Positions 2 to 13,491 of a DNA stretch of 64,000 nt are shown one piece after another. This stretch comes from an uncultured Blautia sp. GTDB lineage: Bacteria; Bacillota; Clostridia; Lachnospirales; Lachnospiraceae. The stretch covers positions 6,584 to 70,583 of the forward strand of contig UQSX01000008.1 of the NCBI GenBank assembly GCA_900543715.1, in the 5' to 3' direction. The notes under the pieces were generated by a model. It did no database searches. It was not told the origin of the DNA and worked only from the letters and a program-made list of their open reading frames with translations. Position 1 is the first letter of the stretch, and each line of letters starts with the position of its first letter. Both the position numbers and the translations under genes were made by a program.

Positions 2-1264
2 CGGAACCCCAGAGGAGCTGTCCGGGAAATTTACAACAATCTTTCTATTGTGATGGGAAATCATATGGCAAACGGAATGATCAATGCCTGTGATCTGTGC
101 GGACAGTGCAAGTCCGCCTGTCCTAATGGATTTGACTACCCGGAAGTATGCAAAATGGCCCGGAAGATCATGGTGGAGACAGAGAAAATGCCGCCTTCCG
201 CTCATGAGTTCGGACTTCTGGACCAGCAGTTCTCCTGCAATGAAGCATTTCTGGCCAGGCCTGAGCCGGGATATGAACACTGCAGATATCTGTTTTTCCC
301 CGGATGCCAGGCTTCTGCCGTGTCACCGGATACAGTAGAAGCTGCTTACAGGGATCTGTCAGGCAGACTTACCGGAGGCGTAGGCCTGCTTCTCGGCTGC
401 TGCGGGGCTCTGGCCCAATGGGCAGGAAGAGAAGATCTGGCTTCAGAGGCATTGGAAAAGATCCGCAGCGTCTGGAAAGAGATGGGAGAGCCGGAAGTGA
501 TCTGCGCCTGTCCCACCTGCATGAAGATATTAAGGGAAAGAACGGAAATTTCTGCGGTGGGAGTATGGCAGATACTCCTGGAACTGGGAACAGATCCGGT
601 GACAGATCAGACAGTGGCTATACAGGATGCCTGCGGGGCAAGAGGAGATCAGAAAATCCAGGAACAGATCCGGGATTTTGCAGGGGCTTTGGGATGTAAA
701 GTAGAAGAAGCCCCCTTTTCCAAAGATCTGTCTCCCTGCTGCGGATACGGGGGAATGGTCCGCTTTGCGAATCCCGAGATGGCAGAAAAAAAAGCTTCTT
801 TTGCAGCCGGCAGGACCTCCAGAAAGATCCTGACCTACTGCATGGCCTGCAGGGACCAGCTGACCCGGGCAGGAGCGGACTCCATACATATCCTAGAACT
901 GGCCTATGGAACCGGCGCTCCTTCGGTGCCGGATCTGTCCCGGCGTAGAGCGAACCGTCTGAAACTGAAGGAAAAACTCCAGCAAGAAATCTGGAAGGAA
1001 GAAATAAGGAGGGAAGCTATGCTGCCGGTCTTTTATGAAAATGGAGCGGAAGAAGAAATGGACAGGCGTATGATCCTGAAAAGCGACGTGGAAGCTGTAC
1101 TGAAAGATTATGAAGCCTCAGGAGAAGCGGTGGAGGACCCGGAAAAGGGCTGGCTGGCTGCTTCCGCCAGGATCGGCAATGTTACTTTCTGGGTAAAGTT
1201 TACCGAGACAGAGAAAGGATACCTGGTATATGGGGCTTACAGCCACCGGATGACTGTGGAGTAA
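2..1264 (+). CDS. Fe-S (dicluster-binding) oxidoreductase subunit, 5' end outside window
   Basis: The frame is open to the left edge, so only the last 420 residues are visible. The GTG/ATG codons at 50-55 are probably internal. The visible N-terminus has a ferredoxin-like C-x2-C-x2-C-x3-CP motif. It is followed by two HdrB/GlpC-type cysteine-rich (CCG) modules, seen as FFPGCQ, GCCGALAQW, CPTC, PCCGYGGM and CMAC. The last ~110 residues have no motif I recognise. Such domains carry 4Fe-4S clusters and pass electrons in heterodisulfide-reductase-like enzymes. From memory, the family in this neighbourhood is a pyridine nucleotide-disulfide oxidoreductase/dicluster protein (DVU_1558-like), so an FAD/NAD domain may lie upstream of the window. 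Eleven bases separate it from the next gene. The Fe-S role is firm; the partner is inferred. Confidence 0.8.
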   Translation, partial: RNPRGAVREIYNNLSIVMGNHMANGMINACDLCGQCKSACPNGFDYPEVCKMARKIMVETEKMPPSAHEFGLLDQQFSCNEAFLARPEPGYEHCRYLFFPGCQASAVSPDTVEAAYRDLSGRLTGGVGLLLGCCGALAQWAGREDLASEALEKIRSVWKEMGEPEVICACPTCMKILRERTEISAVGVWQILLELGTDPVTDQTVAIQDACGARGDQKIQEQIRDFAGALGCKVEEAPFSKDLSPCCGYGGMVRFANPEMAEKKASFAAGRTSRKILTYCMACRDQLTRAGADSIHILELAYGTGAPSVPDLSRRRANRLKLKEKLQQEIWKEEIRREAMLPVFYENGAEEEMDRRMILKSDVEAVLKDYEASGEAVEDPEKGWLAASARIGNVTFWVKFTETEKGYLVYGAYSHRMTVE

Positions 1265-1275
1265 AGGAGGCGCAG

Positions 1276-1494
1276 ATGGGAGAAAAAACTTATTATTCTA
1301 TGGATCCCATGGGAAAACTGAAGTGCCATAAATGCAAAAAAGAACTGGTCAGAGGAAGGGCGGTTTTCAGCTATCTCGGCAATGCGTTCCCGGTAGAACT
1401 GCCGGTATGTCCGGAATGCGGTTATATTTACGTACCTGAGGAGCTGGCAGTAGGCAAAGTCCTTTCTGTGGAACGCAGTCTGGAGGACAAATGA
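1276..1494 (+). CDS. Small zinc-ribbon/rubredoxin-like redox protein (DVU_1557-like)
   Basis: A 72-residue protein with two CxxC knuckles, CHKC near residue 17 and CPEC near residue 47, about 30 residues apart. This is the pattern of a zinc ribbon or a one-iron rubredoxin-like fold. An AAAGGAGG site sits just before the ATG, and the stop overlaps the next start by four bases (ATGA), so translation is coupled. Small proteins of this form recur beside molybdenum-hydroxylase accessory genes and are called redox proteins by family name only. Whether it binds zinc or iron cannot be told from the sequence. Confidence 0.75.
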   Translation: MGEKTYYSMDPMGKLKCHKCKKELVRGRAVFSYLGNAFPVELPVCPECGYIYVPEELAVGKVLSVERSLEDK

Positions 1495-2090
1495 TTGGCA
1501 GTCATCCCGGCGGGCAGGAGATGACAGCCAGACTGCTGACCCTTTCGGGACTCCGTCCTCCTGCCAGGATCCTGGAACTGGGAGCTGGAGAGGGAAAAAC
1601 AGCGGCATATCTAAGAACATTGGGATTTGAAGTAAGGGCAGTGGATCTGAAGCCATCAGGCCCGGGAGTAGAGCAGGGAGACATAAGAAGGCTGGATTTT
1701 GCCAGGGAAAGTTTTGACTGTTGCCTGGCGGAATGTACGGTCTCCGGATGCGGAGACGGAAATGCGGCCCTCAAAGAGGCATTCCGGGTACTGAAAAAAA
1801 ATGGCTGTCTGCTGATAGCCGATGTTTTTTTCAAAAAGAAAAAGGCGCCTTCCCTCTCTATGAGAGAGCCTCTGATATGGAACTGCTGGAAGGAAGCTTT
1901 TGAAAAAGCAGGATTCCAGATAGAAAAGGGGGAGGACGAAACGGAAGCATGGAAGGAATTTTTTTTGGAAAGTCTTTGGAACGGAAATGCAGAGGAAAGC
2001 TGTGTGGATTTCTTCATAGAGGCAGGAAAAGCCGGGTGCGGATACTTCCTGGCCTGTCTCAGGAAAGGAGAGAAAAATGGATTTATTTGA
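1491..2090 (+). CDS. Class I SAM-dependent methyltransferase (DVU_1556-like)
   Basis: A 199-residue protein with a Rossmann SAM-binding motif I (ILELGAGEGKTAAYL, residues ~24-38) followed by an acidic strand end (VRAVDLKP). There is a DIRRLDF segment typical of motif II and an LKKNGCLLIADVFF strand typical of the fifth strand. It lacks an N-terminal substrate domain, so the target is unknown. The ATG is preceded by GGAGG and overlaps the stop of the redox protein. The next gene starts inside its last 14 bases. Its place in a maturation cassette suggests methylation of a cofactor or a carrier-bound intermediate; this is inference. Confidence 0.82.
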   Translation: MIGSHPGGQEMTARLLTLSGLRPPARILELGAGEGKTAAYLRTLGFEVRAVDLKPSGPGVEQGDIRRLDFARESFDCCLAECTVSGCGDGNAALKEAFRVLKKNGCLLIADVFFKKKKAPSLSMREPLIWNCWKEAFEKAGFQIEKGEDETEAWKEFFLESLWNGNAEESCVDFFIEAGKAGCGYFLACLRKGEKNGFI

Positions 2091-2505
2091 GCGTATGCTG
2101 GAACTGTCAGGACAGGGATTCTACTGCGCCCAGATTTTGATGATCCTGGCGCTGGAATCGGAAGAAAGGGAGGACCCGGATCTGATACGGGCCATGAGCG
2201 GATTAAACGGAGGCCTTGGATTTTCCGGAAGAGTCTGCGGCGCTCTTACGGGAGGCTGCTGTTTCTTGGGATATTTTCTGGGAAAAGGAGAGGCGGAAGA
2301 ACTGGAGGACCCGGAGGCCCCGATCCTGATCCAAAAGCTGGCGGACTGGTTTGAAGAATGGACCAAAAGCCGGTATGGCGGCTGTACCTGCCGGGAGATC
2401 CTGGAGGGAGATCCGGGAAATAAAATGAAAAGATGCCCGGAACTTGTAGAAGAAGTATATCAGAAATGCCTGGAACTCCTTTCGGAAAAAGGAGGATTGC
2501 CATGA
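2077..2505 (+). CDS. C-GCAxxG-C-C family protein (DVU_1555-like)
   Basis: A 142-residue protein of the C_GCAxxG_C_C type. It has an early YCAQ cysteine (~residue 17), a glycine-rich GFSGRVCGALTGGCCFLG block (~residues 49-66), and later cysteines in GGCTCREI and KRCPEL. The family is redox-linked and probably binds metal or a cluster through these conserved cysteines, but its chemistry is not established. AGGAAAGGAG precedes the ATG. The start overlaps the methyltransferase by 14 bases and the stop overlaps the NTP transferase by four, so the three are very likely co-translated. Confidence 0.8.
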   Translation: MDLFERMLELSGQGFYCAQILMILALESEEREDPDLIRAMSGLNGGLGFSGRVCGALTGGCCFLGYFLGKGEAEELEDPEAPILIQKLADWFEEWTKSRYGGCTCREILEGDPGNKMKRCPELVEEVYQKCLELLSEKGGLP

Positions 2506-3581
2506 AAGGAGCAGGGCTGATCGCCGCGGCAGGAAGATCCAGACGGATGGAAGGATTTAAACCGCTGCTGGAGATAAACGGCTTTCCCATGATCGCTATG
2601 ACTGTCCAAAGTATGGAAAATGCCGGGATAAGAGATATTACGGTGGTTGTGGGATACCGGGGAGAAGAGGTAAGGAGGGCCTTGAAGGCTCTGGAGGTAA
2701 AAATCGTAGAAAATCCCTTCTGGCAGGACACGGATATGCTGGCTTCTGTGAAACTGGGACTTGAGGCTGTGGACAGGAGACAGGGCGTATTTTTTCTTCC
2801 CGGAGACATTCCTTTAACCTCTCCGGGAACTTTTCAAAAGCTGAGAGAGGGGATTTTGGCAGCAGAGCCGGAAACAGAGGCTCTGATCCCTGCTTCAGGA
2901 GGGAAGACCTTCCATCCCCCCTTTCTGTTTCCTGCAGGCTGTCAGAAAGCACTGGACTATCAGGGCAGCCGGGGACTTCAGGGAGCCTTTGGCGCCATGA
3001 AGACAAAAACAGTAGAGACAGCAGATGGAGGAGCACAGATGGACGCTGATGATCAGAAAGATCTTGCCCATATCCGGGACTATGCCAGAAAGTACAGAGG
3101 GATTTCCCCCCAGTTGTGTGAAAAACTCTATGATGAAGTGAATCTCCCGGCCCATATCCGGGCCCACTGCATGGCGGTGGGGGATCTGGCGGCCTGGATG
3201 GCCCGGCGTCTGACAGAAGCAGGTGCTTTTCTGGATATAGAGCTTTGCAGAAGCGGAGGCTGCCTTCATGATCTGCTGCGGCTGGAGCCCTTTCATGAAA
3301 AAGCGGGGAGAAAGTTTCTGGAAGAAAAGGGGTATCTGGCTCTGGCAGCAGTAACGGGAGCCCACAGAGGTTTTGAGCAGGAGCCGGATACTCTTTGCAG
3401 AGAGGATGTACTGGTGTGTCTGGCGGATAAACTGATCATGGAGAACAGGCGTGTATCTCTGGAGGAGAGATATAGGAAAGCCCTGGAGAAAAAAGAAGTA
3501 AAAAAGCGTATTTTACAGGATATTGAAATCTGCCGTCGGCTGATAAAAGAATTTGAGGTGATGACAGGTGAAAGGTTATGA
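2502..3581 (+). CDS. MobA/MocA-type NTP transferase fused to an HD domain (DVU_1551-like)
   Basis: I place the start at ATG 2502, after GGAGG and overlapping the previous stop, rather than at an in-frame ATG 69 bases upstream. The protein has 359 residues. Residues 1-~190 form a nucleotidyltransferase of the MobA/MocA/IspD fold, with the N-terminal loop AAAGRSRRM then FKPLLEINGFP and PGDIPLTSPGTF. MocA-type enzymes add CMP or GMP to molybdopterin to make the dinucleotide form used by molybdenum hydroxylases. Residues ~210-345 form an HD domain with H (IRAHC) and HD (GCLHDLLRL), likely a metal-dependent phosphohydrolase. The fusion suggests synthesis plus proofreading or removal of a nucleotide-linked cofactor (inference). 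Confidence 0.85.
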   Translation: MKGAGLIAAAGRSRRMEGFKPLLEINGFPMIAMTVQSMENAGIRDITVVVGYRGEEVRRALKALEVKIVENPFWQDTDMLASVKLGLEAVDRRQGVFFLPGDIPLTSPGTFQKLREGILAAEPETEALIPASGGKTFHPPFLFPAGCQKALDYQGSRGLQGAFGAMKTKTVETADGGAQMDADDQKDLAHIRDYARKYRGISPQLCEKLYDEVNLPAHIRAHCMAVGDLAAWMARRLTEAGAFLDIELCRSGGCLHDLLRLEPFHEKAGRKFLEEKGYLALAAVTGAHRGFEQEPDTLCREDVLVCLADKLIMENRRVSLEERYRKALEKKEVKKRILQDIEICRRLIKEFEVMTGERL

Positions 3582-4716
3582 GCAAAAAGTATATTTAAAC
3601 AATGCTGCCACCTCCTGGCCGAAACCGGACTGTGTAGCCCTGGCCGTTTCTCAGGCTCTCAGGAGCCTGCCGGGAGACGCCGGCAGAGGAGGGATCCGGG
3701 AGTTTGATGTGTTTGATCAGGTACGGAAAAAACTGTCTGCTTTGCTGGGAGTTTCCAGCCCGGAAAGGATTGCTCTGGGAAGTAATTCTACATGGGGCCT
3801 GAACCAGGCTGTTTTCGGTTTCCCTCTGGAACCGGGAGACCGGGTGCTGACTACAAAGGCAGAACACAATGCAGTACTCCGTCCTTTATATCGACTGGAA
3901 AAAGAGGGGATCCAGGTAATTTACCTGGATGTGGATAAGACTGGCCGGATAGAGCCGGAGGAGTGGAAAACAGCCGTAAGGAAATACCGGCCCAGACTGT
4001 GTGTGCTGATTCATGTTTCCAATGTGACAGGTGCTGTCAATGACGCAGAGACCCTGACGGCCATGGCAAAAGACGCCGGAGCCGCTATGCTTCTGGATAT
4101 ATCCCAGAGTCTGGGCTGGATCTCTGTTGAAATGGAAAAATGGGGAGCAGATATGGCAGCTTTTACAGGACATAAGTATCTGCTGGGGCCTCAGGGAACC
4201 GGAGGGCTTTACGTCCGGCCAGGGCTTACTTTGGATCCCTATGTACTGGGAGGCACCGGCGTAAAAAGCAATCTGAAGGAAATGCCGGAAGAAATGCCTC
4301 TCCATCTGGAGGCAGGAACCGGAAACGAGCCTTCTTACCATGGCCTTCTTGCCGCCTTGCAATGGGCAGAAGAAAATCCTTTGGACCGGGAGAAAACGGA
4401 GGAAATCCTTCGGTATCTGAAAAAGGGGCTGAGGGATCTGGGCTGCCGGGTGATCCAGCCGGAACCTCCGGTTACGCCGGTGCTTTCTTTTACAATTCCA
4501 GGCTGGCATCCGGGAGAGGTCGGAGATATTTTATCCGGCAGTTATGACATTATCTGCCGGACAGGGCTCCACTGTTCGCCCAGGATCATGGAGAACCTTG
4601 GAACGCCCCAGGGGACTATACGCCTGAGTCTGTCCCGTTTTACGAAAAGGGCGGATGCAGACCGGGTACTGGAAGCTGTGGCCGCTATGTGCGGAGACCA
4701 GATGGAAGAAACCTGA
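3568..4716 (+). CDS. Class V aminotransferase, cysteine-desulfurase-like
   Basis: A 382-residue PLP enzyme starting at a GTG that overlaps the previous gene by 14 bases. The N-terminal YLNNAATSWPKP block, the TKAEHNAVLRPL block, the FTGHKYLLGPQG lysine (Lys203, Schiff base) and the GLHCSPR loop (Cys336, candidate persulfide cysteine) match cysteine desulfurases of the SufS/CsdA kind. Because it sits inside a molybdenum hydroxylase cassette, a likely job is to supply sulfur for the terminal Mo=S ligand, as XdhC/NifS-like pairs do elsewhere. Selenium delivery is an alternative. The family call is strong; the recipient is inferred. Confidence 0.87.
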   Translation: MKGYEQKVYLNNAATSWPKPDCVALAVSQALRSLPGDAGRGGIREFDVFDQVRKKLSALLGVSSPERIALGSNSTWGLNQAVFGFPLEPGDRVLTTKAEHNAVLRPLYRLEKEGIQVIYLDVDKTGRIEPEEWKTAVRKYRPRLCVLIHVSNVTGAVNDAETLTAMAKDAGAAMLLDISQSLGWISVEMEKWGADMAAFTGHKYLLGPQGTGGLYVRPGLTLDPYVLGGTGVKSNLKEMPEEMPLHLEAGTGNEPSYHGLLAALQWAEENPLDREKTEEILRYLKKGLRDLGCRVIQPEPPVTPVLSFTIPGWHPGEVGDILSGSYDIICRTGLHCSPRIMENLGTPQGTIRLSLSRFTKRADADRVLEAVAAMCGDQMEET

Positions 4717-4738
4717 AAACGGAGGATACATTTTAAAG

Positions 4739-6358
4739 ATGGAATTTAAATGGAAAAAGACAGAAAACTGTTTTGCAGAAGCCAGAACGTATGAATATGA
4801 ACTTCCTATTACCGGAGAGGAGCTGGCTGCAAGGCTGGAGGGGTTTGAAGTAAAAGAAAACCATCGGTTCCGCCGCCCGGTTTTTTCGGCAAAGAAGGGG
4901 GCTCTGGAGGTCAAGGGAATCCTGAAGGAAAAGGTTGTGAAGATCAATTATACAGCAGAAAACTGGGAAGAGGAAAAGAACCGGATGGAGGCCTGGATGA
5001 AAAACCAGGAAATTTATATGGAGGAAAAAGGAGAGAGCATCTGCCCGGTATGCCTGAAAGTCCTGCCGGCCCAAAAAGCAGTAAGAGAAGACGGGATCTA
5101 TCTGGTAAAAGAATGTCCGGAACACGGAAGATTTGAAGCGCTGATCTGGGAAGGAACACAGGAAAGCTACCGGGACTGGGGAAAACATATCCTTCCTTCA
5201 GACAGGATTCCCGCCGCCCTTCCTGAAAAGCAGGGATGCCCTCTGGACTGCGGCCTCTGCGAAAACCATCAGCGCCGGGGCTGCTGTGTTCTGCTGGAAG
5301 TAACCGGAAGGTGTAATCTTCAGTGCCCGACCTGCTTCGCCGGATCCGGCCCGCAAGGCCGGGATGTACCATTGGAGGAACTGAAAGACCAGATGCAGTA
5401 TCTCATGGAACACGGAGGGCCTTTTAATCTTCAGATTTCCGGGGGAGAGCCTACGGTCCGGGAAGATCTGGAAGAAATCCTTCGATTTGGGAAAAAACTG
5501 GGTTTTACATTTTTTCAGCTGAACACCAACGGGATCCGTCTGGCAGAAGAACCGGGATATGCAGAGAAGCTGAAAAGAGCAGGAATTTCCTGTGTTTTCC
5601 TGCAGTTTGACGGACTGAAAGAGGCCCCATATCAGGTTTTAAGGGGCCGTCCTCTGCTGGAGATCAAAAAGAAAGCCATCGATGCCTGCGAGGCAGCGGG
5701 ACTGGGAGTCGTGCTGGTTCCGGTCATTGCTCCGGGAGTTAACGAAGACCAGGCCGGGGAAATTCTTTTTTATGCAAGAAGCCGGATGCCTGTGATAAGA
5801 GGCGTTCATTTTCAGCCAGTCAGTTATTTCGGACGCTGCAGCGAGTCAAAAGGCAGCTATCGGATAACCATACCGAAAATGCTGAGGCTTCTGGAAGAAC
5901 AGACAGGAGGCTGGATCCATGCCGGAGATTTTACCGGAGGAGGCGCCACTAATCCTTACTGTACCTTTCAGGCCAACTACCTTAGGCAGAAAGATGGTTC
6001 CATGAAACTTCTGGCTCATGGGGAGCCAAGGACTTCCGGCCTGTCGGAACAGGCCCGGGATTTTGTGGCCCGCCAGTGGAGCGGAAACTGCTGCAGGGAA
6101 GGTCTTCAGGCCGGAGATGGCTGCTGCGGGGAAGAAACGGGAAGACTGACTCTGGATACTTCTTCTCTGGACAATTTTCTGAGGGAGATCCACAGAAATA
6201 CGCTGGCGGTTTCCGGTATGCTGTTCCAGGACGCCTGGAATCTGGAACTGGACCGTTTACGCCGGTGTTATATTCTGGAATCAGACAGCCGGTATGGCAT
6301 GGTGCCTTTCTGCATTTATAATCTGACAGGATCTGACGGGAGGGCTTTGTATAGATGA
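4739..6358 (+). CDS. Radical SAM protein with N-terminal Cys-rich domain (TrsS-like)
   Basis: The start is ATG 4739 behind GGAGG; the reading frame is open further upstream but without a good site. The protein has 539 residues. Residues ~101-130 carry CPVC followed by CPEHG, a zinc-ribbon-like entry domain. A CPLDCGLC segment follows, then the radical SAM triad CNLQCPTC (Cys192, 196, 199) and ISGGEPTVREDL. The last ~110 residues are cysteine-rich (NCCREG, GDGCCGEE) and may hold an auxiliary cluster. Radical SAM enzymes cleave SAM to a 5'-deoxyadenosyl radical. I recall NCBI calling similar cassette members TrsS, some of them selenoproteins, but I have not checked this. The substrate is unknown. 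Confidence 0.83.
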   Translation: MEFKWKKTENCFAEARTYEYELPITGEELAARLEGFEVKENHRFRRPVFSAKKGALEVKGILKEKVVKINYTAENWEEEKNRMEAWMKNQEIYMEEKGESICPVCLKVLPAQKAVREDGIYLVKECPEHGRFEALIWEGTQESYRDWGKHILPSDRIPAALPEKQGCPLDCGLCENHQRRGCCVLLEVTGRCNLQCPTCFAGSGPQGRDVPLEELKDQMQYLMEHGGPFNLQISGGEPTVREDLEEILRFGKKLGFTFFQLNTNGIRLAEEPGYAEKLKRAGISCVFLQFDGLKEAPYQVLRGRPLLEIKKKAIDACEAAGLGVVLVPVIAPGVNEDQAGEILFYARSRMPVIRGVHFQPVSYFGRCSESKGSYRITIPKMLRLLEEQTGGWIHAGDFTGGGATNPYCTFQANYLRQKDGSMKLLAHGEPRTSGLSEQARDFVARQWSGNCCREGLQAGDGCCGEETGRLTLDTSSLDNFLREIHRNTLAVSGMLFQDAWNLELDRLRRCYILESDSRYGMVPFCIYNLTGSDGRALYR

Positions 6359-7563
6359 ATATAGCGAAACTGGATTCCTGGGTAAAGGAGAAGGAAGGGA
6401 TAAAAATCCTGGACCGTCAGGCGATAGAAAGCCTGCAGCTGGAAAAACTGAACCGGCTTCTGGAAAGAGAATACGCCAGGCAGGGATTTTACCGGAACCT
6501 GCCCCGGCGCCTGAATTCTCTGAAGGAACTGGAAAACCTGCCCTTTACCACAGAGCAAGACCTGAAAGAACAGGGGAATCGGATGCTTCTGGTCAGCCAG
6601 TCAAAGATCGAGAGAGTGAGAAGCTGGGAAACCTCAGGGACCACGGGACCTGCAAAAAGGATCTTCTATACCGCCAGGGACAATGACCGGACAGTATCTT
6701 TTTTTTCGGCAGGACTTTCTGAGCTGATCCATTGGGGGGAAAAGGCTGTGATCGCCATGCCTTTTACAGGAGACAGGGGACTTGGCGAACTGATACAGGA
6801 AGCTGTGGAAGGGCTGGGCGCCGTGCCTGTGCCTGCAGGAAATATGAAAAGCTTCGGGGAGATGATGGAACTTCTGGACAAAGAGAAACCGGATACGTTT
6901 ATAGGCCCTCCTGTACTACTGCTGTCTCTGCTCCGTATGAGGCCAAAGAGCAGTATCAAAAGAGGATTGGTCAGCGGAGATGCCTGTCCCCCGGGAATCA
7001 TGAAAGCAATCGAAGAGCGTCTGGGTACCAGACTGTACCCCCACTATGGGTCCAGGGAAATGGGACTTGGAGGTGCTGTCACCTGTCCGGCTTTTCAGGG
7101 TATGCACCTGCGGGAAAATGATATTATTGGGGAGATTGTAGACGAAAAGGGAAAAGCAGTACCGGAAGGAGAGTGGGGGGAGCTTACAGTGACTCTCATA
7201 GAGGCCGGGGCTATGCCTCTGATTCGCTACCGCACAGGGGACATAAGCCGCTTTTTGCCGGGAATCTGTCCCTGCGGCTGCTGTCTGCGGCGGCTGGATT
7301 CCGTCAGCAGGATTGGGGAAGGAAGAGAAATGGAAGAACTTGATGACTATATATTCCAGATCCCATGGATCGTGGATTACCGGATATCCAGGAAAGGAGA
7401 AATTCTGGAAATAGAGGGGCTGACAACGGAAAAAGGCATAGAGGAAAAAGCCGGAGGCCTGCTTCCCGGAGAGTGGAAAGGGAGAAAACTCAACTGTACC
7501 TGGAAATCTGCAGAACCAGAGGATGAGCCCTGCTACCGGGGAAAGCGCAGGATAGAGAACTAA
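6355..7563 (+). CDS. PaaK-like AMP-dependent CoA ligase (DVU_1553-like)
   Basis: A 402-residue adenylate-forming enzyme. The ETSGTTGPAK P-loop (~residues 92-101), YPHYGSREMGLGG (~residues 225-240) and LIRYRTGD mark the phenylacetate-CoA ligase (PaaK) branch of the ANL superfamily. A CPCGCC cluster after the RTGD motif (CPCG recurs in PaaK-like proteins) could bind zinc. The C-terminal subdomain is short. It overlaps the radical SAM gene by four bases. Its carboxylate substrate is unknown. An aromatic acid that feeds, or is made by, the aldehyde oxidoreductase is one idea; activation of a cofactor side chain is another. Confidence 0.82.
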   Translation: MNIAKLDSWVKEKEGIKILDRQAIESLQLEKLNRLLEREYARQGFYRNLPRRLNSLKELENLPFTTEQDLKEQGNRMLLVSQSKIERVRSWETSGTTGPAKRIFYTARDNDRTVSFFSAGLSELIHWGEKAVIAMPFTGDRGLGELIQEAVEGLGAVPVPAGNMKSFGEMMELLDKEKPDTFIGPPVLLLSLLRMRPKSSIKRGLVSGDACPPGIMKAIEERLGTRLYPHYGSREMGLGGAVTCPAFQGMHLRENDIIGEIVDEKGKAVPEGEWGELTVTLIEAGAMPLIRYRTGDISRFLPGICPCGCCLRRLDSVSRIGEGREMEELDDYIFQIPWIVDYRISRKGEILEIEGLTTEKGIEEKAGGLLPGEWKGRKLNCTWKSAEPEDEPCYRGKRRIEN

Positions 7564-7592
7564 GAGAAGGGACAGAGGCAGGGGGAACGCAG

Positions 7593-7994
7593 ATGAATGA
7601 ATTTTATTATATTGCCCGGCTGCGTATCAAGCGCAGAGAGGATAAAGGAAATGAATACTTTGGAAGGGGAGTGGCGGATCTTCTTCACGGTGTAGATCAG
7701 TTTTCCTCACTGAACCTGGCAGCCCGGCATATGGGAATGGCTTACAGCAAGGCCTGGCGGATCGTACGCCAGGCAGAAGCGGCGCTGGGCATACAGCTGC
7801 TGCATCGTATGAGAAAAAACGGTTCCACTCTTACAGCAGAAGGCCGGAAGATGCTTGAAGTTTATGAAGAGGCGGAACAGGCCGCCTGGGCAGCAGCAGA
7901 TGCAGTGATAGAACGTTATTATGGAGGAACGGGGAATGAACAGGATCAAAGAGGAACTGCTCCAGAACAGGGGAATGCTGGTGACGGACTTTGA
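7593..7994 (+). CDS. ModE-like winged-helix regulator without molybdate-binding domain
   Basis: A 133-residue protein whose middle (LNLAARHMGMAYSKAWRIV, residues ~43-61) is the helix-turn-helix of the ModE/LysR type, followed by a wing rich in basic residues (LHRMRKNGSTLT). Full ModE has C-terminal TOBE/Mop domains that bind molybdate. Here only ~30 extra residues follow, and the tail (NEQDQRGTAPEQG) looks unstructured. It must sense by other means or act with a partner. It ends 59 bases inside the next gene. Its likely target is the candidate operator before modA at 8625-8646. Confidence 0.8.
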   Translation: MNEFYYIARLRIKRREDKGNEYFGRGVADLLHGVDQFSSLNLAARHMGMAYSKAWRIVRQAEAALGIQLLHRMRKNGSTLTAEGRKMLEVYEEAEQAAWAAADAVIERYYGGTGNEQDQRGTAPEQGNAGDGL

Positions 7995-8610
7995 TAGGAC
8001 TCTGACCCTCTCTGGCAGTTCCCTTCATGGGGCGGTGCACGTACTGGGGGAAAATTCGGGACTGGCCGTAGGGCGGGACCGGCTTTTTCAGAAAATGGGA
8101 AGAGAGGTTTTGCGTGCTGCAAAGAGGGGGCAGGAGAAGGAAGCTTTGAACAAAAGGGCAGAGGACTGGTGGAAGGAACAGATGGAATTGTATGTGAGAG
8201 AGGGCATTGGCCAAGAGGTATTAAAAAAAGCGGCAGAGCTGCTGCCTCCCAGGAGGGAGGCTCTGGAACTCCTGGAGTTTTGCAGAAAGGAAACTTTGCC
8301 GGTCTGGATCGTCTCTGCAGGCTTGGGAAATGTGATCCGCTTCTGGCTGGAGGCACAGGGAATTTGGGAAACGGGGATCCAGGTGCTGGCCAATGAGCTT
8401 TATTATGCAGGGGAAAACCCTGTAGGATACGGAGAAATCCTTACTATATGGAATAAAAGAGATAAATTTTTTGCTGTAGCAGCACCAGAAGAAGAACAGA
8501 AGTTATTTTTCCTTGGAGATAAAAGAGAAGATCTGAGATGGAGAAAAAATAATGAAGAAAGTTATCTGATCCAAGAAGGAGAAATAGTTAAAATAGAGGA
8601 ATTTGCTTGA
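7936..8610 (+). CDS. HAD-superfamily phosphatase, UMPH-1/PSP-like
   Basis: I choose ATG 7936 (224 residues), with GGAGG nine bases upstream, over ATG 7921, which lacks a site. HAD motif I is VTDFDRTLTL (DxDxT nucleophile), motif II the serine of WIVSAGLGN, motif III the lysine of IWNKRDK, and motif IV LGDKREDL. The SAGLGNVI and NKRD pairing resembles pyrimidine 5'-nucleotidases of the UMPH-1 type more than phosphoserine phosphatase. The 59-base overlap with the ModE-like gene is long but has a clear ribosome site. In this context it may dephosphorylate a nucleotide or pterin intermediate; the substrate is not predictable. Confidence 0.75.
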   Translation: MNRIKEELLQNRGMLVTDFDRTLTLSGSSLHGAVHVLGENSGLAVGRDRLFQKMGREVLRAAKRGQEKEALNKRAEDWWKEQMELYVREGIGQEVLKKAAELLPPRREALELLEFCRKETLPVWIVSAGLGNVIRFWLEAQGIWETGIQVLANELYYAGENPVGYGEILTIWNKRDKFFAVAAPEEEQKLFFLGDKREDLRWRKNNEESYLIQEGEIVKIEEFA

Positions 8611-8774: not shown

Positions 8775-9698
8775 ATGAAAAAAAAGGTTTTAGCAGTACT
8801 GCTGGCAGGCACAATGGCATTGGCCATGGGGGCATGCGGCCAGGAAAGCGGCACAGAGACATCTGAGACCGCCGGAGGAGAAGACGCTGCAGCAGAGGAA
8901 ACAGACGCTGAAGAAACAGCTTCTGACAGCCAGGAAACGACTGAAGAAGGAGATGAGGTAGAACTGACAGTATTTGCAGCAGCCTCGCTCACAGAGACTC
9001 TTACAGAAATCAGCGAACTCTATAAAGAAGAGCAGCCCAATGTAAGCCTGGTCTTTAACTTTGACTCCTCAGGAACTTTAAAGACCCAGATCCAGGAAGG
9101 CGCTGTCTGCGATCTGTTTATTTCTGCAGGACAGACCCAGATGGATCAGATGGACAGTACAGCAGACCCGTCGGTGAACACAGAAGGGCTTGATCTGGTC
9201 CTGGAAGACTCCAGGATCGATATTTTGGAAAATAAGGTCGTGCTCTGCGTCAGCGAAAACAGCAGTGTGCCCTTAGAGACATTTGATGATATGGCGGCAG
9301 CATTGAAGGAAGGAACAATTCTTCTTGGAATGGGAAACAGCGATGTGCCGGTAGGACAGTATACCCAGAAGATCCTGGAGTATTATGGACTGAATGAAGA
9401 GGAACTGGCTGCAAATGGCCGGATCTCTTACGGCAGTAATGTAAAAGAAGTAACCACACAGGTTTCTGAAGGCACCGTGGACTGCGGCGTTATTTATTGC
9501 ACAGATGCTTACTCTGCAGGGCTTACAGCTTCTGACTATGCTACGCCGGAAATGTGCGGACAGGTGATCTATCCTGCCGCTGTTATGAAGAACAGTCAGT
9601 ATCAGGAAGAGGCTCAGGCTTTTCTGGATTTCCTTCAGACAGATCCCTGCATGGAAATCTTTGAAGAGGTTGGCTTCTCCAGGGTGACAGAAGGATGA
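8775..9698 (+). CDS. modA: Molybdate ABC transporter substrate-binding lipoprotein
   Basis: A 307-residue protein with a lipoprotein signal ending in LAMGAC (lipid-anchored Cys21), an acidic low-complexity linker (residues ~25-65, rich in Glu, Thr and Ala), then the ModA fold beginning ELTVFAAASLTETL. The FNFDSSGTLKTQI and DLFISAG segments match the oxyanion-binding loops of ModA/WtpA proteins. It captures molybdate, possibly tungstate, outside the membrane and hands it to ModB. GAAAGGAG precedes the ATG. The stop overlaps modB by four bases. Confidence 0.93.
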   Translation: MKKKVLAVLLAGTMALAMGACGQESGTETSETAGGEDAAAEETDAEETASDSQETTEEGDEVELTVFAAASLTETLTEISELYKEEQPNVSLVFNFDSSGTLKTQIQEGAVCDLFISAGQTQMDQMDSTADPSVNTEGLDLVLEDSRIDILENKVVLCVSENSSVPLETFDDMAAALKEGTILLGMGNSDVPVGQYTQKILEYYGLNEEELAANGRISYGSNVKEVTTQVSEGTVDCGVIYCTDAYSAGLTASDYATPEMCGQVIYPAAVMKNSQYQEEAQAFLDFLQTDPCMEIFEEVGFSRVTEG

Positions 9699-10369
9699 TA
9701 GATTGGTATCCTTTATGGAACTCTCTGCGGATTGCGGCCATCAGCTGTACAGTTGTATTTTTCCTGGGAATCCCTGCCGCTTACTATATAGCCAGGCTTC
9801 CCAGGGCTGTGAAAGGGATTTTAGATGTGATACTGACTCTGCCCATGGTACTTCCGCCTACGGTATGCGGCTATTTTCTGCTGATACTTCTGGGGCCTCA
9901 AAGGCCCCTGGGCAGATTTCTGGCCAATTTCGGCATACAGTTTGCCATGACCTGGTACGGAGGTATCGTAGCTTCGGCGGTAGTAGCTTTTCCGTTGATG
10001 TACCGGACAGCCAGGGGAGCCTTTGAAAGTTTTGACACTACCCTGGCATATTCCGGTCAGACCCTGGGCCTTTCCAATACCTATATTTTCTGGCGTATCC
10101 GGATGCCGGCCTGCCGTCAGGGAATCCTGGCAGGAACGGTTCTGGCTTTTGCCAGGGCTCTGGGAGAATATGGAGCCACCAGCATGCTCATCGGATATGT
10201 TCCGGGGCGGACAGCCACTATATCTACCACGGTTTATCAGCTTTGGCGGACCAATAATGAGCAGGAAGCCTTTTTCTGGGTCATGGTAAATGTAGTAATC
10301 TCAACGGTAATCCTTCTGGCGGTGAATATGCTGGAACGCCGAAACAGAAAGGCAGGTGGCAGGATATGA
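9695..10369 (+). CDS. modB: Molybdate ABC transporter permease
   Basis: A 224-residue membrane protein with about five to six hydrophobic segments. The cytoplasmic EAA loop reads ARALGEYGATSMLIG, typical of ModB/CysT permeases. TLPMVLPPTVCGYFLL and the GLSNTYIFWRIRMP coupling segment are also characteristic. It starts inside the last bases of modA and ends inside the first bases of modC, so the three form one translationally coupled unit for molybdate import. Confidence 0.93.
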   Translation: MIDWYPLWNSLRIAAISCTVVFFLGIPAAYYIARLPRAVKGILDVILTLPMVLPPTVCGYFLLILLGPQRPLGRFLANFGIQFAMTWYGGIVASAVVAFPLMYRTARGAFESFDTTLAYSGQTLGLSNTYIFWRIRMPACRQGILAGTVLAFARALGEYGATSMLIGYVPGRTATISTTVYQLWRTNNEQEAFFWVMVNVVISTVILLAVNMLERRNRKAGGRI

Positions 10370-11430
10370 GCCTTTCCGTTCATATAGAGAAAAAACTGGG
10401 CAGCTTCCGATTATCTGTGGATCTGGAACATCCGGGAGGAATCACTGGCCTTTTGGGGGCTTCCGGCTGCGGAAAGAGTATGACTTTGAAGGCCATTGCC
10501 GGCATTGAAAAGCCTGACAGAGGAAGGATTGTTTTGGATGACAGAGTGCTTTTTGACAGTGAAAAGAAAATCAATCTGAAACCTCAGGAACGAAGAGTAG
10601 GATACCTGTTCCAGAATTACGCGCTGTTTCCCAATATGACAGTGGAGAAGAATATTCTCTGCGGTTTATCCAGGGAGAAGGATAAAGGCCTTCGCAGAAA
10701 GAAAATGGAAGAAATGCTTGAGAAAATGGATCTTACAGCTCAGAGGAAGCTGTATCCGGGACAGCTCAGCGGAGGACAGCAGCAGAGGACGGCCCTGGCC
10801 CGGATCCTGGTCAGTGAGCCGGAGGTGCTTTTGCTGGATGAGCCTTTCAGCGCCTTGGATTCTTATCTGCGGGAGCTGCTGCAGATACAGGTAAAAGACA
10901 TCCTTGCAGGGTATGGAAAGGATGTGCTGCTGGTAAGCCACAGCCGGGATGAAATTTATTATCTCTGTGGCCGGACAGCAGTTATGGAAAATGGAAAAAT
11001 CCTGAAGACCGATGATACAAAAAAACTTTTTGCCGATCCGGGAAGCTGGGCAGGAGCAGAGCTGACCGGCTGCAAAAATATTGCCGAGGCCAGAAAGACC
11101 GGGGAATATGAGGTGGAAGTTCCAGATTGGGGAATCCGTCTGCGTACAGGAAAACCAGTAAAAGATAATGTGTGCGCCGTGGGCCTCCGGGCTCATTACT
11201 TTAACCCCAAAGCCAGGGAAAATATTTTTCCGGTTTCCTATTCATCGGAAAAAGAAGAACCTTTTGAAATGAGAATATTGTTCCGGTATGCAGGACAAAA
11301 AGAAGGGACGCCGGATTTGTGGTGGAGACTGCCTAAGGACAGAAATCCCAGGACCATGCCGGAGAAACTTGGTATTGCCCCCCAGAACGTCCTGCTTCTG
11401 TATCCGGAGCCACAGGAGGATGATATATGA
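10366..11430 (+). CDS. modC: Molybdate ABC transporter ATPase
   Basis: A 354-residue ABC ATPase with Walker A GASGCGKS, Q-loop LFQNYALFPN, signature LSGGQQQR, Walker B VLLLDEPFSALD and H-loop VSHSRDE. After the nucleotide-binding domain, residues ~235-354 form a regulatory tail. It is not an obvious duplicated TOBE domain, but its length fits ModC. It energises ModB. It overlaps modB and the next gene by four bases each. Confidence 0.92.
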   Translation: MSLSVHIEKKLGSFRLSVDLEHPGGITGLLGASGCGKSMTLKAIAGIEKPDRGRIVLDDRVLFDSEKKINLKPQERRVGYLFQNYALFPNMTVEKNILCGLSREKDKGLRRKKMEEMLEKMDLTAQRKLYPGQLSGGQQQRTALARILVSEPEVLLLDEPFSALDSYLRELLQIQVKDILAGYGKDVLLVSHSRDEIYYLCGRTAVMENGKILKTDDTKKLFADPGSWAGAELTGCKNIAEARKTGEYEVEVPDWGIRLRTGKPVKDNVCAVGLRAHYFNPKARENIFPVSYSSEKEEPFEMRILFRYAGQKEGTPDLWWRLPKDRNPRTMPEKLGIAPQNVLLLYPEPQEDDI

Positions 11431-12449
11431 AATTAATACGGACGGAGGATGCGGTAGGACAGGTGCTCTGCCACGATCTGACCCAGATCATTCCGGGAGT
11501 AGTGAAAGGCCCCCGGTTTCGGAAAGGGCATATTGTTGCCCGGGAAGATATTCCTGTACTTCTGAGTATGGGAAAAGACCAGCTTTATGTGTGGGAAAAG
11601 GACGATACGGTTTATCATGAAAACGAAGGGGCGGAGATTTTATGTCAGGTATGTCAGGGAGAGAATATGATTCCTTCTGAGGTGAAAGAGGGAAAAATCG
11701 AGCTGACTGCAGCCTGTGACGGATTGTTTCTGGTTGACGTAGAAAGACTGAATGCCATTAATGAGATCGACCAGGTAATGATCGCTACCAGACACAGCAA
11801 TACTCCGGTGAAAAAAGGGGATAAGCTTCTGGGAACCAGGGTAATCCCTCTGGTGATTAAAAAAGAAAAAATGGAGCTGGTCAAAAAGACTGCAGGGGAA
11901 AAACCTCTCTGCCAGCTTTTGCCTTACCGGCTGAAAAAAGCCGGGATCGTAACTACAGGAAATGAAGTGTTTTATGGAAGGATCCAGGACAAATTTACTC
12001 CTGTGGTGAGGAAAAAGCTGGAACAGTACGGAATACAGGCAGAGGAGCATATTATTGTTGGAGATGAAAAAGAGAAGATCACAGAGGCAATCCTGGAACT
12101 GAAAGTCAGAGGCTGTGAGCTTATTATAGCCACAGGAGGCATGAGTGTAGATCCCGACGACCAGACGCCGGGAGCCATAAAGGAAAGCGGCGCTCAGGTG
12201 GTCACCTATGGAGCTCCGGTACTTCCGGGAGCTATGTTCTGTCTGGCTTATTTTCCCGATGGAACTCCGGTCATGGGACTGCCAGGCTGTGTAATGTATG
12301 CGAAGACTACGATTTTTGACCTGGTCCTGCCTAAGACTGCGGCTGGAATACAGGTATCCAGAAAGGAGATTACCAGACTTGGAAACGGCGGCCTGTGCCT
12401 GGGATGTGAGGAATGCCGCTGGCCGGACTGCGGATTTGGAACGGGCTGA
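11427..12449 (+). CDS. Molybdopterin-binding protein, MoeA/MogA-type domain with Cys-rich tail
   Basis: A 340-residue protein. The C-terminal half has the MoCF_biosynth fold: GIVTTGNEV, ATGGMSVDPDDQTPGA and GLPGCVMYAK, matching the MPT-binding TGGxSxxPDD and GLPG signatures. The N-terminal half (residues 1-~170) is not a full MoeA domain I-II arrangement. The last ~20 residues contain four cysteines (CLGCEECRWPDCGFG), perhaps a zinc or Fe-S site or a molybdenum-handling tail. It follows modC with a four-base overlap and precedes moaA by 26 bases. It probably binds molybdopterin for molybdate insertion. Confidence 0.85.
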   Translation: MKLIRTEDAVGQVLCHDLTQIIPGVVKGPRFRKGHIVAREDIPVLLSMGKDQLYVWEKDDTVYHENEGAEILCQVCQGENMIPSEVKEGKIELTAACDGLFLVDVERLNAINEIDQVMIATRHSNTPVKKGDKLLGTRVIPLVIKKEKMELVKKTAGEKPLCQLLPYRLKKAGIVTTGNEVFYGRIQDKFTPVVRKKLEQYGIQAEEHIIVGDEKEKITEAILELKVRGCELIIATGGMSVDPDDQTPGAIKESGAQVVTYGAPVLPGAMFCLAYFPDGTPVMGLPGCVMYAKTTIFDLVLPKTAAGIQVSRKEITRLGNGGLCLGCEECRWPDCGFGTG

Positions 12450-12475
12450 TATCAGAAAGGAGGGAAACCGGAGAT

Positions 12476-13450
12476 ATGTTTGACAAATATGGAAGAGAAA
12501 TCGATTATATACGGATTTCAGTGACAGACCGCTGTAATCTGAGATGCCTCTATTGTATGCCAGAGGAAGGCGTGTCCATGGTTTCCCATGAAGAAATTCT
12601 CAGCTATGACGAAATCCTCACTTTGGCGGAGGTCTTTGTCAGTCTGGGAATACGGAAAATCAAACTGACCGGAGGAGAGCCCCTGGTGCGCAGGGACCTT
12701 CCCTGGCTGGTAAAAAAGTTAAAGGCAGTGCCGGGAATAGAAAAGGTTACTCTGACCACCAACGGTCTGTTTTTGAAGGAAGCTCTGGGAGAACTTGGGG
12801 AGGCAGGAATAGACGGGATCAATCTGAGCCTGGATACCCTGAATCCGGAGGTTTTTGCAGAGATTACCAGAAGAAGGGGATTAGATAAGGTTCTGGAAGG
12901 ATTTTACGAGGCGCTGAAATATCCGGAAATTCCCCTGAAGATTAACTGTGTGCCTTTGGGCAGGGAGGACCAGGGAGTTCTGGAAATAGCAGAACTGGCC
13001 AGACAATATCCTGTACATGTGCGTTATATAGAGATGATGCCTATTGGTTTGGGAAGACAGTTCAGGTCAGTGGGAGAAGAAGAGCTTCTGGAACAACTCC
13101 GGGAAAAATATGGAAATCCCAGTCCCTGTGAGGAAAAACTGGGTAATGGACCAGCCCATTACTATAGCTTTCCCGGATTTTTGGGAAAAATCGGCTTCAT
13201 CAGTGCACTGAGCCATAAATTCTGCGGAAGCTGCAACCGGGTACGGCTGACCTCTCAGGGATTTTTAAAAACCTGCCTTCAGTATGAGACTGGGGCGGAT
13301 TTAAGAAGGCTGCTGAGAGAAGGGGCCAGTCAGGAAACTCTGAAAAGGGCTGTGGAACAGGCGATCAGAGATAAGCCCCAGAGTCACAGATTCGGAGAGA
13401 AGGATACTGGGGAAGTGGAGACCCATATGATGTCCCAGATTGGCGGATAG
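12476..13450 (+). CDS. moaA: GTP 3',8-cyclase, first step of molybdopterin synthesis
   Basis: The start is ATG 12476 behind AAAGGAGGG; an in-frame ATG 63 bases upstream lies inside the previous gene. The protein has 324 residues. The radical SAM triad is CNLRCLYC (Cys20, 24, 27). The second 4Fe-4S cluster that binds GTP comes from FCGSCNR plus the cysteine of FLKTCL. The chain ends in Gly-Gly, a MoaA hallmark needed for radical transfer. MoaA turns GTP into 3',8-cyclo-GTP. MoaC, MoaD and MoaE are not in the window and must lie elsewhere. Confidence 0.95.
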   Translation: MFDKYGREIDYIRISVTDRCNLRCLYCMPEEGVSMVSHEEILSYDEILTLAEVFVSLGIRKIKLTGGEPLVRRDLPWLVKKLKAVPGIEKVTLTTNGLFLKEALGELGEAGIDGINLSLDTLNPEVFAEITRRRGLDKVLEGFYEALKYPEIPLKINCVPLGREDQGVLEIAELARQYPVHVRYIEMMPIGLGRQFRSVGEEELLEQLREKYGNPSPCEEKLGNGPAHYYSFPGFLGKIGFISALSHKFCGSCNRVRLTSQGFLKTCLQYETGADLRRLLREGASQETLKRAVEQAIRDKPQSHRFGEKDTGEVETHMMSQIGG

Positions 13451-13491
13451 CTCTTGAGGGGCAGTTTACAGTTTTTCATGGAGGTGGAAAA

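Follow-up and report, generated by a model that had tools for sequence, protein, structure and literature searches.

A conserved radical SAM gene cassette beside a Mop aldehyde oxidoreductase in Blautia, with a possible sulfur relay into the Tes relative TrsS

Gene content of the cassette and its surroundings

The window, a stretch of 64,000 nucleotides from an uncultured Blautia sp., opens with eight plus-strand genes (2-7563) that overlap or are almost contiguous, the junctions from gene 1 to gene 8 measuring +11, -4, -14, -4, -14, +22 and -4 bases. This agrees with the compact order and spacing described by a first-pass annotation of the same DNA. Genes were named after the nearest profile family, with scores in bits compared to the curated NCBIfam cut-offs. 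Gene 1 (2..1264) encodes a dicluster/CCG-domain protein (NF045663) whose 5' part lies beyond the window edge, and sequence preceding the window start was taken from L036, a contig 97% identical to the window. The cut copy scored 498 bits and the full L036 copy 727 bits (cut-off 530). The full-length counterpart is a dicluster/CCG protein of 740 aa and not a hydroxylase Fe-S subunit.

Gene 2 (1276..1494) encodes a DVU_1557-family zinc-ribbon redox protein (NF045645, 91 bits, cut-off 60; PF24292) and gene 3 (1491..2090) a SAM methyltransferase with an N-terminal HPGG motif. The nearest family of the latter, NF045667 (DVU_1556), was matched at 128.1 bits, below the cut-off of 155, but lay far ahead of other families and its operon position matches too. 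A C-GCAxxG-C-C protein (2077..2505; NF045669, 168 bits, cut-off 103; PF09719) is followed by a MocA-like NTP transferase with an HD domain (2502..3581; nearest NF045665 (DVU_1551), 283.3 bits, below the cut-off of 315) and a cysteine-desulfurase-like PLP enzyme (3568..4716; nearest TIGR01977 (EF2568), 307.3 bits, below the cut-off of 377). The radical SAM protein TrsS, of the Tes type (4739..6358; NF045646, 553.8 bits, cut-off 490), most likely starts at 4739, 22 bases past the desulfurase end, and carries an N-terminal domain of ~95 aa, here termed Ndom (4739..5026), with a single invariant cysteine, Cys11. The last gene (6355..7563) encodes a PaaK-like adenylating ligase (NF045666 (DVU_1553), 339.4 bits, cut-off 300) whose adenylation motifs look intact and whose relatives are PaaK-type.

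As the first-pass annotation had stated, a ModE-like regulator and molybdenum genes come next, all on the plus strand. A short gene for a ModE/LysR-type HTH regulator (7593..7994; PF00126; TIGR00637 at 32.6 bits, below the cut-off of 98.5) overlaps a HAD-type phosphatase gene (7936..8610) by 59 bases. Further downstream lie modA, modB and a probable modC (8775..11430), the first two above cut-off and modC below it and named from its place and partial fit, and then a moeA-like gene, moaA (359 bits, cut-off 284) and a MOSC-type gene (11427..13923). The moeA-like gene had no NCBIfam match at 1e-20 and was named by eye.

The same order was found again in dozens of loci, which places the arrangement beyond chance: Mop, dicluster protein, zinc ribbon, methyltransferase, C-GCAxxG protein, (NTP transferase), (desulfurase), TrsS and ligase. 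Gut Lachnospiraceae and Oscillospiraceae account for many of the loci found. The parallel drawn earlier with Desulfovibrio DVU_1551-1558 also stands, since DVU_1551-DVU_1559 of D. vulgaris shares the families NF045645, NF045646, NF045663 and NF045665-NF045669; five of the NCBIfam models matched here bear the names DVU_1551, 1553, 1555, 1556 and 1557, and the sixth is TrsS. Published tables enter DVU_1559 as an aldehyde oxidoreductase (PMC10920352); for DVU1558 the entry reads cysteine-rich/iron-sulfur protein (PMC3114432). Compared by families and published tables, the window would differ from the D. vulgaris locus in its extra cysteine desulfurase and its TrsS-fused Ndom.

Linkage to the aldehyde oxidoreductase Mop

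A gene for Mop, an aldehyde oxidoreductase of 915 aa, precedes gene 1 in L036 (1195-3942), just outside the window. Its product scored 1563.3 bits against NF045668 (cut-off 1100), aligned over its full length to the Desulfovibrio crystal structures PDB 1dgj and 1sij, and matched the D. gigas enzyme over the whole length with 1216 bits. Glu869, the catalytic residue of the D. gigas enzyme, and the residues that line its substrate pocket are identical in the alignment, in which positions were counted by hand. D. gigas Mop provided the first crystal structure of the xanthine-oxidase family (PMC10223205).

Co-occurrence was analysed in 249 genomes, 15 TrsS-positive and 234 others, at a Mop cut-off of 1100 bits. 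Mop was over cut-off in 14 of the 15 TrsS-positive genomes, the fifteenth holding a copy cut short where a contig begins (Fisher p = 4e-19 for TrsS and Mop across the 249 genomes, relatedness ignored). The ligase was present in 13/15 of the TrsS-positive genomes and in 0/234 of the others. The first-pass annotation had suggested comparing neighbourhoods for a constant linkage to a molybdenum hydroxylase, and such linkage is supported: of the 57 loci that extend 9.3 kb or more upstream of TrsS, four (L059, L065, L069, L082) have no Mop nearby. At L107, L114 and L115 the end of Mop falls at the locus edge.

Genome-wide, six loci without a neighbouring Mop were checked, the above four together with L084 and L099. 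A full Mop over cut-off was found elsewhere in the L059 and L082 genomes, and a Mop at 1099.7 bits, against the cut-off of 1100, in the L069 genome. The L065 and L099 genomes held Mop fragments only, two of the three starting at most 9 bases from a contig start. No Mop match over cut-off was found in the L084 genome, a MAG; TrsS stands alone there, and a full cassette that lacks a molybdenum enzyme, the case that would have spoken against the link, was not found. Conversely, Mop does not depend on TrsS for its presence in a genome: G191 has three Mop genes that exceed the cut-off, whereas none of its genes exceeds that for TrsS.

Other molybdenum functions lie close by. A Moco riboswitch stands ahead of the moeA-like gene, Mop and cassette in 5 of the 33 sources scanned, and XdhC_C was found in 14/15 TrsS-positive genomes, at most ~2.2 kb from a cassette gene in ten. 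The molybdenum link of the cassette is real, and the cassette very probably makes up the downstream portion of an operon dedicated to Mop.

TrsS, a Tes relative, and its desulfurase-Ndom companion

The core of TrsS is homologous to the tetraether lipid synthase Tes (GDGT-MAS; MJ0619, PDB 7tol). Its profile matched PDB 7tol with 417.6 bits, and the predicted TrsS structure (pLDDT 87, pTM 0.89) superposed on 7tol in Foldseek with TM 0.80 and an rmsd of 6.8 Å over 486 columns, the next family being MoaA (TM 0.41-0.43). The metal ligands of Tes have been described (PMC9433317), and TrsS has the same pattern: a rubredoxin-like CX2C...CX2H, an N-terminal CX3CX2C with His, the radical SAM CX3CX2C, and C-terminal Cys with the labile Met. 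The residues C15/C18/C39/H42, C80/C84/C87/H90, C105/C109/C112 and C321/C423/C438 are kept in 60/60 rows, and M407, which aligns with the labile Met439 of Tes, in 60/60 rows and in 19/20 of a more diverse set. These ligands predict one rubredoxin-like and three [4Fe-4S] sites, matching the four metal sites of Tes, and C321 would be a cluster ligand.

TrsS nevertheless falls below the Tes family cut-off (NF045702; 319.2 against 450 bits), and Tes chain residues 338-445 have no alignment to it. Tyr459, conserved across 1,000 archaeal Tes homologues, is also replaced: at the equivalent site, as read from the TrsS-Tes profile alignment, 60 rows hold Glu (57) or Val (3) and the 20 diverse rows Val (12), Glu (6), Ile (1) or Phe (1), with no Tyr. 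The Tes variants Y459F and Y459L remain active, so this residue distinguishes families, not mechanisms. Tes uses its cluster to form a thiolated substrate and makes carbon-carbon bonds via carbon-sulfur intermediates (PMC9433317). Whether TrsS likewise performs cluster-sulfur radical chemistry we regard as evenly balanced. TrsS with radical SAM also appears in a selenoprotein table that gives no function for it in the part available (PMC13188914). At L131, a TrsS-like protein lies between two molybdopterin-oxidoreductase-like genes, whose family was assigned by eye.

The desulfurase has the PLP-binding lysine (Lys203) in 29/29 rows and the catalytic cysteine (Cys336) in all 26 rows with a letter at this position, three rows being gapped. 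Across 85 loci, a desulfurase immediately upstream of TrsS and Ndom were both present in 20, both absent in 65 and mixed in none. All four independent pairs changed jointly (p = 0.125, from four pairs only). Ndom is fused to TrsS in five loci and the window, and is a separate gene in 20; it occurred in one of the 249 genomes, a TrsS-positive one. Comparison of its fold turned up no confident hit among sulfur carriers or any other proteins. Ndom is a new domain of ~95 aa with one invariant cysteine that goes with the desulfurase. A cassette-type desulfurase without Ndom (467 bits) was found at L142, on another contig of genome G091, where its neighbours are a ligase and a Mop relative, and three more distant desulfurase-like genes without Ndom (311-324 bits) occur elsewhere in L051, L071 and L090.

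Proposed working of the operon and alternatives

We give a probability of about 45% to the explanation that best covers these data as a whole, a dedicated Mop operon composed of redox, cofactor and radical-SAM groups with a sulfur relay. In the redox group, electrons from the aldehyde-oxidising site would pass through Mop itself, the dicluster protein and the zinc-ribbon protein, a route that stands in for the FAD subunit missing from Mop. In the cofactor group, the MocA-like/HD protein, judged by its family, would make and insert MCD together with XdhC and a moeA-like gene, both encoded close to numerous copies. The radical-SAM group, TrsS with the HPGG methyltransferase and the adenylating ligase, would build or alter a small organic molecule, something that Mop works with or on and not its pterin ring. 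TrsS retains the ligands of the Tes site that bonds the substrate radical to a sulfur of the C-terminal [4Fe-4S] cluster.

In the version of the window, the cysteine desulfurase may hand sulfur to Cys11 of the fused Ndom, and Ndom may supply it to TrsS, either as the donor for a C-S bond or for rebuilding of the C-terminal cluster. We propose a relay into TrsS because Tes makes carbon-sulfur intermediates; it remains tentative, at slightly less than an even chance. D. gigas Mop carries no sulfido group on Mo and does not require Mo=S, which leaves the desulfurase free for a different role. As 65 of the 85 loci have neither desulfurase nor Ndom beside TrsS, a dedicated relay would not be universally needed. 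Biotin and lipoyl synthases are radical SAM enzymes whose Fe-S clusters are sacrificed. They belong to other families (both are also mentioned in PMC9433317), and TrsS, through a putative sulfur insertion, would share with them the use of cluster sulfide to build a C-S bond and the need for sulfur resupply.

Alternatively, the genes may form a metabolic pathway instead of a maturation system: Mop would oxidise an aldehyde, the ligase would convert the resulting acid to its CoA ester or an acyl-adenylate, and upstream of these steps TrsS and the methyltransferase would act on the same substrate. The intact-looking ligase with its PaaK-type relatives fits this, as do the matching pocket residues of Mop and the pairs of a TrsS-like protein and an HPGG methyltransferase that exist apart from the remaining cassette genes, found in 6/7 plasmid loci. 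However, among the neighbour clusters identified no recurrent transporter or extra enzyme names a substrate, and the MocA-like and XdhC neighbours suggest cofactor work; we consider such a pathway doubtful.

The first-pass annotation suggested a modified molybdopterin or cofactor side chain; on this view TrsS, the methyltransferase and the ligase would act on the pterin. The close Mop linkage, the MocA-like NTP transferase within the operon, the Moco riboswitch ahead of some copies and the setting of L131 agree with a modified MCD. The idea is nevertheless unsupported, because the D. gigas cofactor, in the account of its 1.28 Å structure (PMC10223205), is plain MCD, D. gigas being compared by its enzyme alone, and because TrsS groups with Tes and not with pterin enzymes. 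MJ0619, since shown to be a tetraether lipid synthase (PMC9433317), is the origin of the 'HMPTM' zinc-ribbon label that TrsS bears, and the free-standing TrsS-like/methyltransferase pairs also speak against it. We judge it unlikely, and the earlier interpretation is overall partly supported.

The desulfurase, Ndom and the NTP transferase might instead be devoted to a labile Mo ligand, sulfur or selenium, with TrsS separate. Se-dependent molybdenum hydroxylase genes (YqeB, YqeC, YgfJ; Haft and Self 2008) likewise combine a hydroxylase with a MocA-like protein, and a TIGR01977-type enzyme is met in either setting. In PMC2276186, YgfJ-type (MocA-like) proteins are proposed as accessories of these hydroxylases, and EF_2568, the namesake of TIGR01977, is among the top matches to the selD profile. 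SelD was over cut-off in 15/15 TrsS-positive genomes against 168/249 overall (p = 0.0022), but SelB was over cut-off in 14/15, so SelD may simply track the use of selenocysteine; G001, the one genome without SelB over cut-off, carries YqeB elsewhere. YqeB (TIGR03309) was over cut-off in 8/15 TrsS-positive genomes against 67/234 others (p = 0.077); seven of these eight have it on a different contig, and in the remaining one it is 0.69 Mb off. Many cassettes have XdhC, a chaperone of sulfuration/insertion, close by, and Mo sulfuration may therefore still matter. The cassette also differs from the Se-dependent set in its hydroxylase family and in containing TrsS, ligase and HPGG methyltransferase. 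With no YqeB beside the cassette, an Ndom fused to TrsS and a D. gigas Mop free of a sulfido ligand, this explanation is improbable.

Taking the Mop operon with a sulfur relay to its full extent, Mop-type enzymes might need or act with an undescribed sulfur-containing molecule, made by the Tes-class TrsS with sulfur from its C-terminal cluster; in the lineage of the window this cluster would be recharged by the desulfurase via Ndom as a new single-cysteine carrier. We think this unlikely to hold in full; if true, such a molecule would have escaped notice although the Desulfovibrio enzyme has been studied for decades. The Mop operon holds several conserved genes without an assigned role, and if the cassette product is needed by Mop, the usual account of Mop is incomplete. 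The pairing of desulfurase, Ndom and TrsS offers a concrete and cheap way to probe what TrsS does, and a relative of Tes that in bacteria draws on a dedicated sulfur donor would extend the reactions known for the Tes class.

Cassette order and its link to Mop

The cassette occupies positions 2-7563 of the window, and its eight genes, all on the + strand, are joined by junctions of +11, -4, -14, -4, -14, +22 (the widest) and -4 bases, as expected from the compact eight-gene cassette described in the first-pass annotation. HMM searches assigned the first gene to a dicluster/CCG protein (2-1264, the 3' part of a gene that starts beyond the window edge). The other seven were assigned, in order, to a zinc ribbon of the DVU_1557 type, a methyltransferase, a C-GCAxxG-C-C protein, an NTP transferase that is MocA-like and carries an HD domain, an enzyme resembling cysteine desulfurases, TrsS (a radical SAM protein) and a ligase of the PaaK type. 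Three of the eight (methyltransferase, NTP transferase and desulfurase) scored below the curated cut-off of the nearest NCBIfam family; the dicluster protein scored below its own only as the cut copy of the window. Directly 3' of the cassette come two genes, one for a short HTH protein and one for a HAD phosphatase, and then a group made up of modA, modB, modC (probable), a gene resembling moeA (assigned by eye), moaA and a gene of the MOSC type.

The region upstream was read from a closely related contig (L036), which is 97% identical to the window over 16.4 kb and whose first 5 kb precede it. The host belongs to the Lachnospiraceae, close to Candidatus Blautia pullistercoris (L046, 99.5% over 5.5 kb) and Blautia sp. 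An81 (L037). L036 carries the full dicluster gene (740 aa, L036:4043-6265, with window 2-1264 as its 3' part) and, 5' of the window start, the gene for Mop, a molybdopterin aldehyde oxidoreductase of 915 aa (NF045668, 1563 bits). The solved structures closest to this Mop are the Desulfovibrio enzymes 1dgj (1234 bits) and 1sij (1216 bits), both matched over the full length. With alignment positions counted by hand, Glu869, catalytic in the D. gigas enzyme, is identical in the L036 protein, as are six residues of the substrate pocket of D. gigas Mop (Phe425, Phe494, Leu497, Arg533, Tyr535 and Leu626). In the dicluster protein, a flavin/NAD domain gave a Pfam match in L116 and L114 and none in L036, L060 or L112, and may thus be degenerate in some lineages.

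To follow this gene order, we compared at least 80 named loci (from Bacillota-rich matches) and 18 stretches from genomes of the phylum, all selected for a TrsS or TrsS-like gene, using profiles made from window and L036 proteins. One order recurred with few changes: Mop, dicluster protein, zinc ribbon, methyltransferase, C-GCAxxG protein, (NTP transferase), (desulfurase and Ndom, a domain of ~95 aa), TrsS and ligase. Among the matches listed, 57 loci extend 9.3 kb or more upstream; 50 of these have Mop within 9.5 kb, and 53 have the dicluster gene. The end of a Mop gene sits at the locus edge in three (L107, L114, L115) of the seven loci without a counted Mop. The ligase lies 3' of TrsS in 81/88 loci, again among the matches listed.

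Across 249 genomes of the phylum, TrsS, Mop and the ligase were over cut-off in 15, 17 and 13 genomes, respectively. Fourteen of the 15 TrsS genomes also had Mop over cut-off; in the 15th (G072), Mop is truncated where a contig starts. Three genomes (G069, G079, G191) had Mop over cut-off and no TrsS over cut-off: the TrsS of G069 scored 469.5 bits and lies at the start of a contig, G079 has a relative that scored 332 bits, and G191 has no close relative. Both associations were highly significant by Fisher's test when relatedness is ignored (p = 4e-19 for the TrsS-Mop pair, p = 6e-20 for the TrsS-ligase pair). The molybdenum link put forward in the first-pass annotation was borne out by the neighbourhood comparison, and the evidence for it is strong.

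G191 (L137-L139), a genome with no TrsS over cut-off, carries three Mop genes on short contigs, two of the genes adjoining a dicluster gene. A conserved protein of 80-91 aa with a VTVEVKDEKTG pattern was observed in 24 loci, directly 5' of Mop on either strand in L058, L060 and L112; its copy at L058:3341-3598 had no Pfam or NCBIfam match. A scan of 33 sources (the window and 32 loci) placed a Moco riboswitch directly before the moeA-like gene, Mop and the cassette in five (L116, L117, L119, L120, L125). No riboswitch was found in the window or L036; in place of the 5' Moco RNA of those five loci, a ModE-type gene lies 3' of the cassette in the window species.

TrsS and the tetraether lipid synthase

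TrsS (NF045646) matched the tetraether lipid synthase Tes (MJ0619, PDB 7tol) across the core with a profile score of 417.6 bits. An AlphaFold model of the TrsS core (pLDDT 87, pTM 0.89) aligned to 7tol with a TM score of 0.80 (rmsd 6.8, E 1.5e-41); MoaA came second among families, at 0.41-0.43. The Cys/His pattern known from Tes (available text of PMC9433317) was present in 60/60 TrsS rows, as was Met407, aligned with the labile Met439 of Tes and kept in 19/20 rows of a more diverse set. In contrast, at the position of Tes Tyr459 the 60 rows have Glu (57) or Val (3), the 20 diverse rows have Val (12), Glu (6), Ile (1) or Phe (1), and Tes chain residues 338-445 have no alignment to TrsS. Together, these results make TrsS a Tes-type enzyme, though the cut-off test places it outside Tes proper. 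In Tes itself, the available text of PMC9433317 describes a radical stored as a C-S bond on the C-terminal cluster and a thiolated lipid recovered after acid treatment under limiting SAM.

Related strains vary in length at window 6120-6137, within a Cys-rich, low-confidence linker of TrsS, and the L037 protein exceeds its L036 counterpart by 21 residues. At L131:5383-12647, a TrsS-like protein that scores 395 bits, under the cut-off, is encoded between two large putative DMSO-reductase-type molybdopterin oxidoreductases, with MoeA-, MobA- and MoaA-like genes nearby (all families by eye). A DUF5714 protein (L128:15019-15753), a relative of the double selenoprotein MbdU (113.6 bits, cut-off 600), belongs to a cluster found in 9 loci and adjoins TrsS in L128 and the ligase in L058.

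The HPGG motif of the methyltransferase is well kept over 77 rows (H in 67, P in 77, the two G in 74 and 77). Seven plasmid loci were retained from 184 records, where one place covers at least 80% of the query, and in six of these (L134, L135, L136, L147, L148, L149) a TrsS-like radical SAM gene is followed by an HPGG methyltransferase gene. Five of these pairs are haloarchaeal and one is from Mycolicibacterium; the radical SAM gene is interrupted in L149. The plasmid radical SAM proteins are TrsS-like by identity (31-34% to TrsS). The other cassette genes were not found in the plasmid stretches at ORF lengths down to 40 aa; the one exception, in the seventh locus, was a weak match of desulfurase type (E 7e-4). 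This pairing apart from the remaining cassette genes suggests that the two proteins have a chemistry of their own. Several plasmid pairs lie near redoxin, DUF547, DUF3179, TauE/SafE or DsrE genes. The cassette ligase has intact-looking adenylation motifs, and its structural relatives are PaaK-type.

Ndom and the cysteine desulfurase

The window TrsS has ~90 extra N-terminal residues, which constitute Ndom. Among the matches listed, Ndom has a small gene to itself in 20 loci and is fused to TrsS in five (L036, L037, L039, L040, L046). Its presence followed that of a desulfurase directly 5' of TrsS: among the listed matches with at least 1.6 kb upstream (85 loci), 20 had both, 65 had neither and none had one alone. 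The wider pairing is broken in G091, which lacks Ndom yet has, on another contig (L142), a cassette-type desulfurase (467 bits) adjoining a ligase and a Mop relative; in three loci (L051, L071, L090), more divergent desulfurases (311-324 bits) lie at other places in the stretch, also without Ndom. In a tree of 95 TrsS proteins, 4/4 independent pairs on well-supported branches switch both traits together (p = 0.125, too few for significance).

Ndom has seven invariant positions in 19 sequences, Cys11 being the one invariant cysteine. No Pfam or NCBIfam match was obtained for Ndom of the window protein or the separate L114 copy, nor any confident structural relative for its predicted fold, and among the 249 genomes it was found in one (G001), which has TrsS. 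In the desulfurase, both the PLP lysine and the catalytic cysteine are conserved. We infer, at slightly less than even odds, a relay in which the desulfurase would load sulfur onto Ndom and the loaded Ndom would serve TrsS. The desulfurase could instead act in sulfuration of molybdenum, XdhC lying within ~2.2 kb of a cassette gene in 10/15 TrsS genomes, but this reading has less appeal, since the enzyme of D. gigas requires no sulfido ligand, according to the accessible portion of PMC10223205.

Cofactor, selenium and pterin readings

The modified molybdopterin proposed at first lacks support, and the crystal structure of a close relative (D. gigas, compared by Mop alone), with its ordinary MCD cofactor, would weigh against it. 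The known selenium-dependent hydroxylase system was rejected on linkage to YqeB, a marker of these hydroxylases in the part of PMC2276186 available: YqeB was over cut-off in 8/15 TrsS genomes versus 67/234 others (p = 0.077) and never near the cassette, which by this test is not that system. SelD was over cut-off in 15/15 TrsS genomes and 168/249 overall (p = 0.0022); this enrichment may reflect selenocysteine use, since SelB was over cut-off in 14/15, the exception being G001, the nearest relative. G001, with SelD and YqeB over cut-off and SelB not, resembles the orphan SelD of Haft and Self. A role for TrsS as a pterin methylase, taken from the Pfam name HMPTM zinc ribbon, was dropped because the source of that name, MJ0619, was shown to be a lipid synthase (PMC9433317, available text), and the name is thus no evidence for pterin chemistry, which for TrsS stays conceivable but unsupported.

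The open-access literature searched gave no mention of DVU_1551, 1553, 1555, 1556, 1557 or diclust_near_Sec and, as far as its accessible text shows, no function for the cassette genes is in print; the set DVU1552, 1554, 1558, 1559 and 1560 turned up in tables, and TrsS was named together with radical SAM. The locus is best read as an operon of Mop and a radical SAM module of the Tes type, which in the window's lineage would have a dedicated sulfur supply.
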